Source: Selenomonas sp. AB3002
Lineage (GTDB): Bacteria; Bacillota; Negativicutes; Selenomonadales; Selenomonadaceae
Direction of reading: 5' to 3'
Assembly (NCBI RefSeq): GCF_000702545.1
Contig: NZ_JNIO01000008.1
Location: forward strand, 2,046,001 to 2,110,000
Length of the DNA stretch: 64,000 nt
The notes beneath the pieces were generated by a model, which saw only the letters and a list, made by a program, of their open reading frames with translations, had not been told where the DNA came from and ran no database searches. Each line of letters begins with the position of its first letter. Positions within the stretch are counted from its first letter, which is position 1. A program made the translations under genes and the position numbers. Below are positions 3,111-49,512 of this stretch, piece after piece.

Positions 3111-4100
3111 CTATCGTTCCACGGCCCGCCGCAATTCCTCGACAGACACCGTGGCCGTGCCCAATTTCCGCACGGCTATGCCGGAGGCGATATTGCTGAG
3201 CTCGGCTGCCTTTTCAGGGCTGATGCCGGCAGCCAGCGCCAGAATCACCGTAGCCACACAGGTATCACCTGCACCTGACACATCGTAGACCTCGCTCTTA
3301 TCGGACACTGGGATCACATGGACAGCCCCGTCTTTTTCCACCAGGATCATGCCCAATTCCCCGCGGGTCACCAGCACACCTTCAGCAGAAAGCTCTGCCA
3401 GGAGCTCCTGGGCAGCCTCAATGACCGCTCCTTCATCCGACAGGCTCCTGCCCACAGCAGCGGCGAGCTCCGCATCATTCTGCTTCACATAGCCAATGCC
3501 CTTGAAGCTCTTCACATCATAGCGGGAATCAACCATGGTGGGAATGCCGTGCTCCCTGGCATATTTAATAAGTGCCTTCCGCAGTTTCGGCGTCACCGTG
3601 CCAGAACCGTAGTCGCTGAGGACAATGCCCTGCATCTGCGGCAAAACAGATTTGATATATTTCAAAAGTTCTTTTTCATGTGCTTCGGTAAGAGGCTCAT
3701 GGCACTCCTTGTCCACCCGCACAATCTGCTGGCTGACGGTAGCCCGTCCTCCGGCAATAATGCGTGTCTTGGAAATGGTGGGACGCGCTTCATCTGTAAG
3801 CAGGCCCTCAATATGGGCACCGTTCTTCTGCAGCACTTCCTTCAGGCCCTCCCCGCCGCTGTCATGGCCCAGGAGACCCACAGCAAAGACGCTTCCTCCC
3901 AAGGTGGCAATATTGTTTACCACATTGGCAGCGCCACCTGCCACAATGACCTCTTTCTGCTGCTCCAGCACCAGCACCGGTGCCTCCCTGGAAATGCGGG
4001 AAATCGTGCCCTGAAGGTAAATATCTGCCACCACATCTCCCAAAACCAGGATGCGGCGCCCCTCCAGTTCATCCAATATAGAAAGCAATTCCTCTTTCAT
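3111..4100 (-). CDS. HldA-type PfkB heptose-7-phosphate kinase (copy 2)
   Basis: A 329-residue PfkB-family kinase with RfaE domain I features: [22 protein letters not shown] at the N terminus, [15 protein letters not shown] near residues 55-70, and DVSGAGDT at about 273-280 with Asp279 as expected base. It is clearly diverged from the copy at 429-1415. It sits 4 bp upstream of hldC and so resembles the other half of a split hldE. It may be the principal heptose kinase, with the other copy specialised, or the reverse. Family assignment is firm; the exact substrate is inferred. Confidence 0.8.
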
Positions 4101-15403: not shown

Positions 15404-15490
15404 GAAAATACCTCCAGAAAACTTACGTTAAAGTTCAATATTTCTTATTATATGCTTTTAATGGTTGGATAGCTAGCCCCCTAATACGAG

Positions 15491-15615
15491 TTACGGCTGT
15501 TCATTTCTTTGGCGCAAAGAAAACGAACCCAAAGGTAAACATGCCGGTGGCATGTTTACGCGGACTGAAATCACATCGTGTGATTTCCGCGTCCGCGGGG
15601 CCCATCCATGGGCCC
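15491..15615. repeat. Mosaic hairpin repeat, copy 1
   Basis: Starts with CGGCTGTTCATTTCTTT and its partner AAAGAAAACGAAC, continues with a hairpin GGTAAACATGCC/GGCATGTTTAC, then further hairpins (CGCGGA, TCACATCGTGTGA), and ends in the palindrome GGGCCCATCCATGGGCCC. Related copies lie at 17461-17662, 20046-22108 (split), 27389-27518 and 49133-49240. It fills most of the 353 bp between the RbsB-like gene and the PTS terminator. Confidence 0.85.
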
Positions 15616-15616
15616 T

Positions 15617-15650
15617 GGGGTTCGAGGGGTTCGGGGGATGGGGGTTCGGG
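15617..15650 (+). other. G-rich tract with G-quadruplex pattern
   Basis: Five runs of three to five G (15617-20, 15626-29, 15633-37, 15640-44, 15648-50) are separated by 2 to 5 bases on the + strand, between mosaic repeat copy 1 and the PTS operon terminator. Confidence 0.55.
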
Positions 15651-27388: not shown

Positions 27389-27518
27389 GGCGTCCATGGA
27401 TGGACGCCTCTGCGGCCCTTCGTGTTTGAGGATCAAACCGGGGCCGTTGTAAATATGCCACTGGCATATTTACCTTTTGGTTCGTTTTCTTTGCGCCAAA
27501 GAAAATGAACAGCCGAAA
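27389..27518. repeat. Mosaic hairpin repeat, copy 4
   Basis: Begins with GGCGTCCATGGATGGACGCC, then a GCGGCCCTT/CCGGGGCCGT hairpin, GTAAATATGCC/GGCATATTTAC, and ends with GTTCGTTTTCTTTGCGCCAAAG and AATGAACAGCCGAAA. Its GTAAATATGCC stem differs from the GTAAACATGCC stem of copy 1 by paired changes on both arms. Confidence 0.85.
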
Positions 27519-27521
27519 CTG

Positions 27522-28040: not shown

Positions 28041-28066
28041 CCCTTCCCAAATAAATAACGTATTTA

Positions 28067-28210
28067 TTATAACGCCGTTGTTCCAGTTTTGCCATAGGCA
28101 AAACTTCCGCTTAGCGTTTCAACAGGCTTGTCCCGTTATAACGCAGTTGTTCAAATTTTGTCGACAGACAAAATCTGAACAATGACGGTTCAACATAGCT
28201 GTTATGTTAA
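28067..28210. repeat. Two tandem 69-bp hairpin units
   Basis: TTATAACGCCGTTGTTC (28067) and TTATAACGCAGTTGTTC (28136) start two units 69 bp apart. Each continues with a hairpin: GTTTTGCC/GGCAAAAC in the first, ATTTTGTC/GACAAAAT in the second, so stem bases changed in pairs. A third small hairpin follows. Confidence 0.65.
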
Positions 28211-36864: not shown

Positions 36865-36954
36865 AGGGAACATCACTATTTTACATAGTTGATATACCGG
36901 TAACATATATCATAGCATTTTGCCGGTCAGAGAAGAAATTTTTATCCTGTGCCC

Positions 36955-37057
36955 AAGTGAGTGAGGGGCACAGGTACAGCATAAGCGGAACGTGTGGAAT
37001 CTGGCTGCAGGCCGGAGTCCAAGTGAAGCGTCGCTGTACCTGTGAACCGAACGCCTT
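36955..37057 (+). ncRNA. Covarying structured RNA element, copy 1 (malic enzyme leader)
   Basis: A 12-bp perfect stem CACAGGTACAGC/GCTGTACCTGTG closes a conserved core that begins ATAAGCGGAACGTGTGGAAT and contains a second stem GGAATCTGGC/GCCGGAGTCC, then CCAAGTGAAGCG; CCGAACGCCTT follows the closing stem. The core is nearly identical in copy 2 at 38385-38483, while the closing stem is different in sequence but still fully paired. I do not recognise it as a known riboswitch class. Confidence 0.75.
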
Positions 37058-37095
37058 GGCGGGAATGGACCGGCCACACGGAAAGGATGTTACTT

Positions 37096-38361
37096 ATGAA
37101 AAAGGAAAATGTAAACCAAGCTTCTCTCGAGCTCCATCAGGAAAGCCAGGGCAAAATCGAAATCATGAGCAAGGTGCCCCTGAACACCCAGCGCGACCTG
37201 ACCCTGGCCTACAGTCCCGGGGTAGCAGCCCCCTGCCTGGCCATCAAAGACGAGCCAGAGAAGATTTACGACTATACTTCCAAGAGCAATCTGGTGGCAG
37301 TAGTCACCAACGGCACTGCCGTCCTGGGCCTGGGCGCCATCGGCGCAGGCGCAGGCCTGCCCGTCATGGAAGGCAAGGCCATCCTCTTCAAGGGCTTCGC
37401 AGGTGTGGACTCCGTCCCCATCGCCCTTGACTCCAAAGACCCCCAGGAAATCATCCGGGCCGTGGAAATGATGGCCCCCACCTTCGGCGGCATCAATCTG
37501 GAGGACATCAAAGCTCCCGAGTGCTTCGTCATCGAAAACGAGCTCAAGAAAAGACTTGATATCCCCGTCTTCCACGATGACCAGCACGGCACCGCCATTG
37601 TGGTAGCTTCTGCCCTCATCAACGCCCTCAGAGTGGTGAAGAAGGACATGGGCGCCATCCGCGTAGTAGTGAACGGCGCAGGCGCCGCCGGCCAGGCCAT
37701 CACCCGCCTGCTGGTCTCCCTGGGCGTGCAGGACATCCTGCTCTGCGACACCAAGGGTGCCATCTACGAAGGCCGTCCCGAGGGCATGAATCCCTTTAAG
37801 GACGACATCGCCAAGATCACCAACCGCCAGATGCACAAAGGCAGCCTTGCAGAAGTGCTGAAAGGCGCCGACGTCTTCGTAGGCGTCTCCGTGGCAGGCT
37901 GCGTCACCGAGGAAATGGTGCGCTCCATGGCAGATGATCCCATCATCATGGCCATGGCCAACCCCACCCCGGAAATCATGCCGGAACTGGCCCACAAGGC
38001 CGGCGCCCGCATAGTCTGCACAGGCCGCTCCGACTATCCCAACCAGGTGAACAACCTGCTGGCCTTCCCGGGCATCTTCCGTGGCGCTTTGGACGTCCGT
38101 GCCAAGGAAATCAATGAAGAAATGAAACTGGCAGCCGCCCATGCCATCGCCAGCCTCATTTCCGAGAAGGAGCTTGCTCCCAATCATGTCATCACCAGCC
38201 CCTTCGACCCGAGAGTGGCTCCCGCAGTAGCCAAGGCCGTGGCAAAAGCCGCCATAGAAACAGGCGTTGCAAGAAGCCACAACATGACTCCCACGGACGT
38301 AGCCGCCCACACCAGGGCACTGCTGGCAGGCATGAACAGAAAGCAGCAGGTCAGCGCCTAA
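37096..38361 (+). CDS. NAD(P)-dependent malic enzyme (oxaloacetate-decarboxylating)
   Basis: 421 residues from the ATG at 37096 (AAAGGA 9 bp upstream); longer open starts run through the leader element. Short bacterial-type malic enzyme: LAYSPGVAAPCLAI, catalytic Tyr/Lys regions, metal site FHDDQHGTAIVV near residue 160, Rossmann NGAGAAGQAITRLLVSLG, and AMANPTPEI. It converts malate to pyruvate and CO2 with NAD(P)+. The domain after the catalytic core is short, so the phosphotransacetylase extension of MaeB is absent. It is monocistronic and flanked by the two copies of the structured element. Confidence 0.93.
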   Translation: MKKENVNQASLELHQESQGKIEIMSKVPLNTQRDLTLAYSPGVAAPCLAIKDEPEKIYDYTSKSNLVAVVTNGTAVLGLGAIGAGAGLPVMEGKAILFKGFAGVDSVPIALDSKDPQEIIRAVEMMAPTFGGINLEDIKAPECFVIENELKKRLDIPVFHDDQHGTAIVVASALINALRVVKKDMGAIRVVVNGAGAAGQAITRLLVSLGVQDILLCDTKGAIYEGRPEGMNPFKDDIAKITNRQMHKGSLAEVLKGADVFVGVSVAGCVTEEMVRSMADDPIIMAMANPTPEIMPELAHKAGARIVCTGRSDYPNQVNNLLAFPGIFRGALDVRAKEINEEMKLAAAHAIASLISEKELAPNHVITSPFDPRVAPAVAKAVAKAAIETGVARSHNMTPTDVAAHTRALLAGMNRKQQVSA

Positions 38362-38384
38362 GCCATGCTTTACTAAGCGTATGT

Positions 38385-38483
38385 AAGTGAGGGACAGGGG
38401 CATGACATAAGCGGAACGTGTGGAATCTGGCCGCAGGCCGGAGTCCAAGTGAAGCGTTGTCATGCCCCTGCCCCGAACGCCTT
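38385..38483 (+). ncRNA. Covarying structured RNA element, copy 2 (downstream of malic enzyme)
   Basis: Starts AAGTGAGGGACAG, has the 12-bp closing stem AGGGGCATGACA/TGTCATGCCCCT, the same ATAAGCGGAACGTGTGGAAT core and CCGAACGCCTT end as copy 1. It lies 23 bp after the malic enzyme stop and before a bidirectional terminator, so it is in the 3' part of the same transcript and has no gene downstream in its direction. Confidence 0.75.
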
Positions 38484-38496
38484 AGAACACTAAACT

Positions 38497-38547
38497 AAAA
38501 AGCAGATGCACCATCATCCCCCAGATGAATGGTACATCTGCTTTTTT
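38497..38547. terminator. Bidirectional terminator between malic enzyme and trxB genes
   Basis: AAAAAGCAGATG with CATCTGCTTTTTT, plus inner CCATCAT/ATGAATGG pairing, gives T-runs on both strands between convergent transcripts. Confidence 0.85.
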
Positions 38548-49240: not shown

Positions 49241-49290
49241 CCTTACAAAGAGGGCATAGTTCCCCTAACAGTACACCTGCTGTGTCCTCC

Positions 49291-49432
49291 ATCCCCTTTG
49301 TCTCCTTTCTCACGAAAGGGATTTAAGAGATTTCTCTCGACCGGACCGGCCGGAAGGCATCCGCTGAGTTCTCGACAACCTTCTCCTCGTCCTCTCATCC
49401 TTCACGTCCAGGATGAGAGCCTGCGCTAAACA
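49291..49432 (-). ncRNA. glmS ribozyme (GlcN6P-activated self-cleaving RNA)
   Basis: The minus strand reads TTTAGCGC, then a stem CTCTCATCC/GGATGAGAG, then GACGAGGAGAAGGTTGTCGA, then CAGCGGATGCCTTCCGGC and the terminal P3/P4 hairpins. These match the conserved core of the glmS ribozyme family in order and spacing. The expected cleavage is between A49427 and G49426 (before GCGC). It lies about 210 nt upstream of the glmS start, with a mosaic repeat between. Confidence 0.94.
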
Positions 49433-49512
49433 TTTCTGCTTTTCATTACCACCGGTACAGCAGGTTTTTACTTACACCGGATTTCCCTCGGGATTATCCC
49501 GATTACCCGCCT

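Follow-up and report, generated by a model that had tools for sequence, protein, structure and literature searches.

The two hairpins at the malic enzyme gene of Selenomonas sp. AB3002 are most probably copies of a dispersed, non-coding and apparently non-autonomous mobile repeat of the Selenomonas ruminantium group, REP- or MITE-like in kind (probability about 0.72). The window analysed here is the whole 64,000-nucleotide stretch that contains this locus, and its genome is denoted G000; five sister genomes of the genus are denoted G001 to G005.

Two hairpins at the malic enzyme locus

The first-pass annotation had described two elements of about 100 nt with a common core around the malic enzyme gene, whose stems differ in sequence and yet pair perfectly. 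Both observations were borne out. The elements are two 101-nt hairpins, both on the + strand, and perfect stem pairing could be read directly from the sequence (CACAGGTACAGC/GCTGTACCTGTG and CAGGGGCATGACA/TGTCATGCCCCTG). Their boundaries were set by comparison with other repeat copies. The features of the locus are as follows.

36922..37074, + strand: host leader hairpin with copy 1 in its loop, arms GCCGGTC (36922-36928) and GACCGGC (37068-37074), from sister-genome comparison
36957..37057, + strand: copy 1 of the hairpin repeat, short form of 101 nt, in the leader of the malic enzyme gene; covariance-model match of 104 bits, the copy being one of the 13 used for building the model
36965..36981, + strand: 5' arm of the variable main stem of copy 1, partner 37032-37048, from the fold and the model structure
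37032..37048, + strand: 3' arm of the variable main stem of copy 1, from the fold and the model structure
37096..38361, + strand: malic enzyme gene between the copies, host sequence outside the repeat (PF00390, 2.1e-29; PF03949, 7.7e-24)
38383..38483, + strand: copy 2 of the hairpin repeat, short form of 101 nt, just 3' of the malic enzyme gene; covariance-model match of 115.6 bits, this copy also being one of the 13
38391..38407, + strand: 5' arm of the variable main stem of copy 2, partner 38458-38474, from the fold and the model structure
38458..38474, + strand: 3' arm of the variable main stem of copy 2, from the fold and the model structure
38498..38547, + strand: terminator-like hairpin and T run 3' of copy 2, host sequence, from direct reading

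The copy 1 region (36950-37065) showed a folding energy of −56.7 kcal/mol, compared with −37.8 ± 3.6 kcal/mol for its dinucleotide shuffles (z = −5.3). For the copy 2 region (38378-38490) the values were −55.6 kcal/mol and −33.4 ± 3.5 kcal/mol, respectively (z = −6.3). None of the shuffles folded as well as the real sequence, either for copy 1 (0/200) or for copy 2 (0/200). Copy 2 starts 22 nt past the last base of the malic enzyme gene, and copy 1 is the sole copy with divergent flanking genes among the 65 full copies described below.

Copy 1 was absent from the malic enzyme leader in all five sister genomes. The contig of G004 ends inside the malic enzyme gene, and in the four sister genomes that are readable on the 3' side copy 2 was absent from the 200 bases after the gene; whole-genome searches likewise gave no copy at this position on their contigs. 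Because the sister malic enzyme sites are without the repeat, both insertions are particular to G000 among the genomes compared. The special link of the pair to the malic enzyme gene that the first-pass annotation had implied was not upheld: the sister genomes lack both copies and the repeat is dispersed and found in this genus only, so the tie looks accidental. We attribute the bracketing of the gene to chance, the repeat being common in G000.

The leader hairpin into which copy 1 was inserted was present in all six genomes. Without the repeat, its arms are identical in G001, G002, and G003, read GCCAGTC/GACTGGC in G004 (a paired change), and are shorter in G005 (GCCGG/CCGGC). This hairpin may act as an operator or as an element of RNA control. 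In G001 and G003, too, the malic enzyme gene is followed by terminator-like hairpins, without the repeat.

The element had been described as a class that was not recognised, and the Rfam search agreed, giving no match above the gathering cut-off of any family. On the window, only glmS and a tRNA exceeded their cut-offs, both outside the hairpins. A permissive search of copy 1 alone gave rpfG as the best match, at 14.7 bits against a cut-off of 75.9; a group II intron or other known motif was rejected, no such family being among those listed in this search. The glmS ribozyme-riboswitch of the window is located at 49280-49438 (− strand) and scored 88.6 bits.

Distribution, placement and ends of the repeat

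A whole-genome pattern search allowing up to 3 mismatches found 31 core copies in G000, and the reversed control pattern gave 1 match. The covariance model, for which 13 short copies were used, gave 35 rows on G000, which are the same 31 places plus 4 opposite-strand matches to copies. Three forms occur in G000: the short one measures ~101 nt and the long one 141-167 nt, and a single copy (L030) is a 72-nt deletion form. In the long form an extra module and a variable tip lie between the outer parts common with the short form. In G000 a 3' end lies at most 220 bases from each of the 31 core matches. Matches to the 3' half number 34, of which 4 are without a core, two of these being partial copies (L107, L109). 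No gene-carrying longer version and no gene between the halves was found in G000.

The repeat was present in five of the six genus genomes. Full copies number 30 in G000, 22 in G002, 7 in G003, 4 in G001, 2 in G004, and 0 in G005. The G000 alignment (A1) held 30 of the 31 copies, L030 being left out, and the alignment of all 65 copies (A3) covered 54 of 62 loci at an E-value limit of 1e-14. Partial or diverged copies outside the 65 are L030, L098, L099, L100, L107, L109, L020:4950, L073:3316, L074:3288, and L076:3124. None of the 183 other genomes of the family showed the repeat, in searches with stricter filters than the genus search, which weak matches may escape; the 189 genomes of the family are also the order set, and the 5 positive ones all belong to the same genus. 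In a genome contig collection, a 21-base pattern matched 20 stretches; 17 carry Selenomonas titles (S. ruminantium, Selenomonas sp. or uncultured Selenomonas sp.), and for some of these the title indicates a rumen sample. A wider host range was rejected, as the three other stretches (Coriobacteriales, Clostridia, Spirochaetia) and two viral contigs gave no model match. Plasmid and phage records gave no match to copy 2.

Among the 65 copies, 30 were antisense, 21 sense, 7 convergent, and 1 divergent relative to the flanking genes, with gene positions taken from a simple script and no trained gene finder. The remaining six, at four loci with a 5S rRNA close by (L013, L019, L075, L077), had no called gene on one side. 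Overlap of a copy with a called gene never exceeded 20 bases. Among the 51 copies in same-direction settings, of either orientation, 42 had the stop codon closer to them than the next start, and the distance to the stop codon was at most 30 nt in 40 of the 51. We agree with the earlier remark that a simple 5' riboswitch is insufficient. Orientation relative to GC skew was left unused because it is confounded with gene direction.

Two copies in tandem were observed in G002 at L075, L077, L080, and L082 (the last being a half and a full copy), and at the first three of these loci a stretch like the left flank recurred between the tandem copies. L074 has a full copy at 3179-3279 (+) and, a short way after it, a diverged copy in the opposite orientation at 3288-3388 (−).

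Copy numbers were uneven among the sister genomes, and repeat-free orthologous sites exist beyond the malic enzyme locus. At two shared sites (L029/L083 and L026/L081) one genome showed the long form and the other the short form, which suggests that copies exchange their interiors or else that the site received two insertions. At a site common to four genomes (L023, L078, L092, L101) the 27 unpaired positions were identical in each of the six comparisons. In 18 orthologous pairs, hand-chosen from 41 and so not a random sample, identity was 402/432 (93%) at unpaired and 1197/1330 (90%) at paired positions, compared with 1666/1886 (88%, aligned columns only) in the adjoining spacer and 4743/6378 (74%) at third codon positions. 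As the element was kept about as well as the spacer, selection may be acting on some copies where they are.

The first four positions of the 65 copies are G in 50, T in 50, A in 45 (G in 17), and A in 65, and the 3' end has the consensus CCTTAGCATGC; the ends are inverted but carry conserved mismatches. A loose flank-word test for target-site duplication on the 65 copies gave a slight excess (2/300 shuffles as high), and a register scan of 51 copies, after 14 tandem, orthologous or duplicate rows were dropped, found no duplication above shuffles. The 3' tail CCTTAGCA or GAACGCCTTAG was repeated past the element after L022:3164 and L011:10465 (− strand). The Y1 transposase domain (PF01797) was found in five of the six genus genomes. 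G000, G001, G003, and G004 have both the domain and repeat copies, G002 has 0 despite its 22 full copies, and G005 has 1 with no copies. A Y1/RAYT transposase as mover was rejected, since its presence does not follow copy number.

Other repeat families were also observed. A related longer hairpin (L020:4940-5156, with relatives at L133:4734-4962, L012:3981-4149, and L093:3213-3381) has similar outer loops (GTAAGCGAAGGG; AAGCGAAGCG../..GTAGCGTTG) and a different interior. Its outer stems differ among its three distinct versions, and the L012 version adjoins a short copy. A second dispersed intergenic family of several consecutive hairpins (window 15489-15635 and 27449-27520; L020:396-560) occurred, among the matches listed, in G000, G002, and G003. 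A third dispersed family of ~142 bp (window 28061-28127; L020:11566-11722), with many members among the matches listed in G000-G004, contains an AAGTGGA..GGAAC arrangement resembling the loops of the hairpin studied here.

Pairing, covariation and closure of the loops

The element is a rod-like hairpin with conserved internal loops (AAGTGA../..GAACG outside, GCGGAAC../..GTGAAGC inside) and variable stems. By eye, tandem G.A beside GU/AC can be read at both the outer and the inner loop, reversed at the inner one, and from this pattern the two would be one motif. In 64 distinct rows, 95.5% of cells were paired, compared with 87.0% after shuffling of the 3' letters, and both sides had changed in 26 of 37 pairs, compared with 14.8 in shuffles (0/500 shuffles as high); the alignment was fitted to the structure, and these figures lean in its favour. 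When the partner was slid by 1-3 columns, pairing dropped to 27-48%.

In the main stem, G-U exceeded A-C by 61:21 cells, which are not independent of one another, and by 36.8:18.6 parsimony events (p = 0.02 on rounded numbers). For all pairs the ratios were 99:63 by such cells and 62.9:41.0 by events (p = 0.04). Transitions to Watson-Crick pairs, over all pairs, amounted to 25.1 events from G-U and 4.1 from A-C, and the parsimony count gave about 64 double changes. The main-stem ratio was 28:11 in sense, 22:5 in antisense, and 4:3 in the 7 convergent copies. Having the same sign in sense and antisense copies, the G-U excess does not track the host mRNA. The inner stem was reversed (11:30), 23 of its A-C cells being one column pair. 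Strand-symmetric arm correction alone does not predict the main-stem excess, and there is a weak to moderate indication that the element's own strand is selected to fold at some life stage, as RNA or DNA alike.

The outer loop reads GTGA/GAAC in 39 of the 65 copies. It was fully complementary in 9/65, by change of either arm, with complementarity scored in 63 of the 65 because two rows have unequal outer loops, and with the older loop state taken from the family majority. In L076, L012:7236, and L022 it was the 5' arm that had changed to complement the 3' arm, and in L020:2945, L087, L088, and L089 the 3' arm had changed to complement the 5' arm; the orthologues L079 and L094 have a closed loop GCAA/TTGC. 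Where both GA letters of an arm were replaced, they became TC in 7 cases (three 5' arms and four 3' arms) and TT in 3. The loop is closed in L087 as against open in its orthologues L010 and L104, and at the site of L020:2945, which has TCAC, a remnant in G001 shows GAGC. The inner tandem G.A loop was fully closed in no listed row. L025:3000 showed partial inner closure, in which the 3' arm changed from AA to TT and most of the loop was paired in the fold.

Template switching can fix existing stem pairing and explain multibase compensatory changes (PMC8794818, in excerpt). Two-letter changes to the exact complement, on either arm and in a family that is mostly mismatched at these positions, are the expected product of template switching between arms. 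The sequence comparison suggests that part of the matched pairing may stem from such arm correction in DNA. Exchange between copies could be a source of some closed loops. This bears on the first-pass claim that complete stem replacement around a fixed core is the signature of selected RNA structure. Its factual part stands, as the stems covary strongly. Stem replacement is not by itself such a signature, because the closing of the outer loop by change of either arm makes it an unclean proof of RNA function.

Competing explanations and comparison with known repeats

Under the mobile-repeat reading, copies would be moved in trans by an enzyme that reads the folded ends or the conserved loops. 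The arms may be kept complementary in good part by template switching between them during DNA replication, some selection on folding of the element's own strand would be added, and interiors would be exchanged between copies. After insertion, a copy probably becomes a 3'-UTR hairpin in the transcript of the gene whose end it adjoins, with a modest effect at most. Copy 1, which lies within a conserved leader hairpin loop, is the atypical insertion and would be the copy likeliest to alter the expression of its gene.

A functional class of structured RNA, transcribed and with its fold selected, for example as an mRNA-stabilising or protein-binding hairpin in the 3'-UTR, would explain the excess of double-changed and paired positions over shuffles, the main-stem G-U excess by cells and by events, the preponderance of G-U among transitions to Watson-Crick pairs, and the unpaired positions that stayed unchanged across four genomes at one orthologous site. 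However, the G-U excess has the same sign in antisense and sense copies and is nearly even in convergent ones, the inner stem shows the opposite bias (largely through one column pair), many copies are missing from sister genomes, and outer loops were closed from either arm; we regard this explanation as improbable. A ligand-sensing riboswitch or attenuator specific for malate or pyruvate has in its favour that copy 1 lies in the malic enzyme leader. With 29 other copies elsewhere in G000 and a leader without copy 1 in every sister genome, we give it next to no weight, and a malic enzyme riboswitch or regulator was ruled out by the distribution and the repeat-free sister genomes.

HUH-type cut-and-join has been proposed for REPs and is known for the ends of IS200/IS605 elements. 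A single-stranded-DNA element, one strand of which would fold in the course of replication for an HUH-type (Y1/RAYT-like) enzyme to cut and join, would fit the strand-specific G-U excess that is independent of gene orientation, the imperfect hairpin with conserved mismatches, the result that no fixed target-site duplication was found, and the REP-like placement beside stop codons (PMC3733652, in excerpt). Against it, the copy-rich G002 lacks the Y1 domain that the other five genomes have, G005 among them without any copy, and the 5' end is mostly GTAA/GTGA and not GTAG. We consider such an element possible but rather unlikely. A further reading, which we also consider unlikely, is a mobile structured nucleic acid with selection for folding of its own strand, either as RNA or as single-stranded DNA. 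The repeated tandem G.A loops between the stems of its rod would be read by a protein dedicated to this, from the host or from a mobile element; template switching would renew the arms, and copies would exchange interiors.

Compensatory stem changes are usually taken as proof of RNA function. The apparently mobile repeat described here offers a natural case in which such changes can be set, copy by copy, against traces resembling template-switch arm correction. Dozens of paralogous and orthologous copies in both gene orientations make the shares of mutation and selection in the covariation measurable. A practical caution is that RNA-motif searches in Selenomonas can catch such repeats.

REPs are dispersed imperfect hairpins near gene 3' ends, mostly between same-direction or convergent genes, and sometimes supply the stop codon (PMC3733652, in excerpt). 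The Selenomonas repeat is alike in form and in its placement near gene 3' ends, with 1 of 65 copies between divergent genes. It differs in size, as REPs have 20-40 bp and this repeat 101-167 nt with a nested core (the 72-nt L030 apart). REPs end in GTAG or CGTC, whereas the 5' end here is mostly GTAA/GTGA, and hosts of GTAG-class REPs mostly have a RAYT/Y1 transposase, whereas this repeat does not follow Y1. By these tested features the repeat is not a GTAG/CGTC REP. The main text of PMC3733652 does not mention Selenomonas, and no earlier description of the repeat was found in a narrow search of the open-licence PMC literature.

The bcr1-bcr18 repeats of the Bacillus cereus group are multi-copy and intergenic, some MITE-like and some with conserved RNA folds, and 40-51% of bcr copies were found in mRNA (PMC3446304, in excerpt). 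The Selenomonas repeat is likewise multi-copy and intergenic and differs in host, the comparison being one of description. Cozzuto et al. (2008) described repeated stem-loop families genome by genome, two thirds of them intergenic with a shared fold (PMC2267715, abstract level), and at that level of description the present repeat is alike as an intergenic repeated stem-loop. By its behaviour it belongs with the REP-, MITE-, and bcr-like intergenic hairpin repeats, of which it is, as far as seen, a new family.
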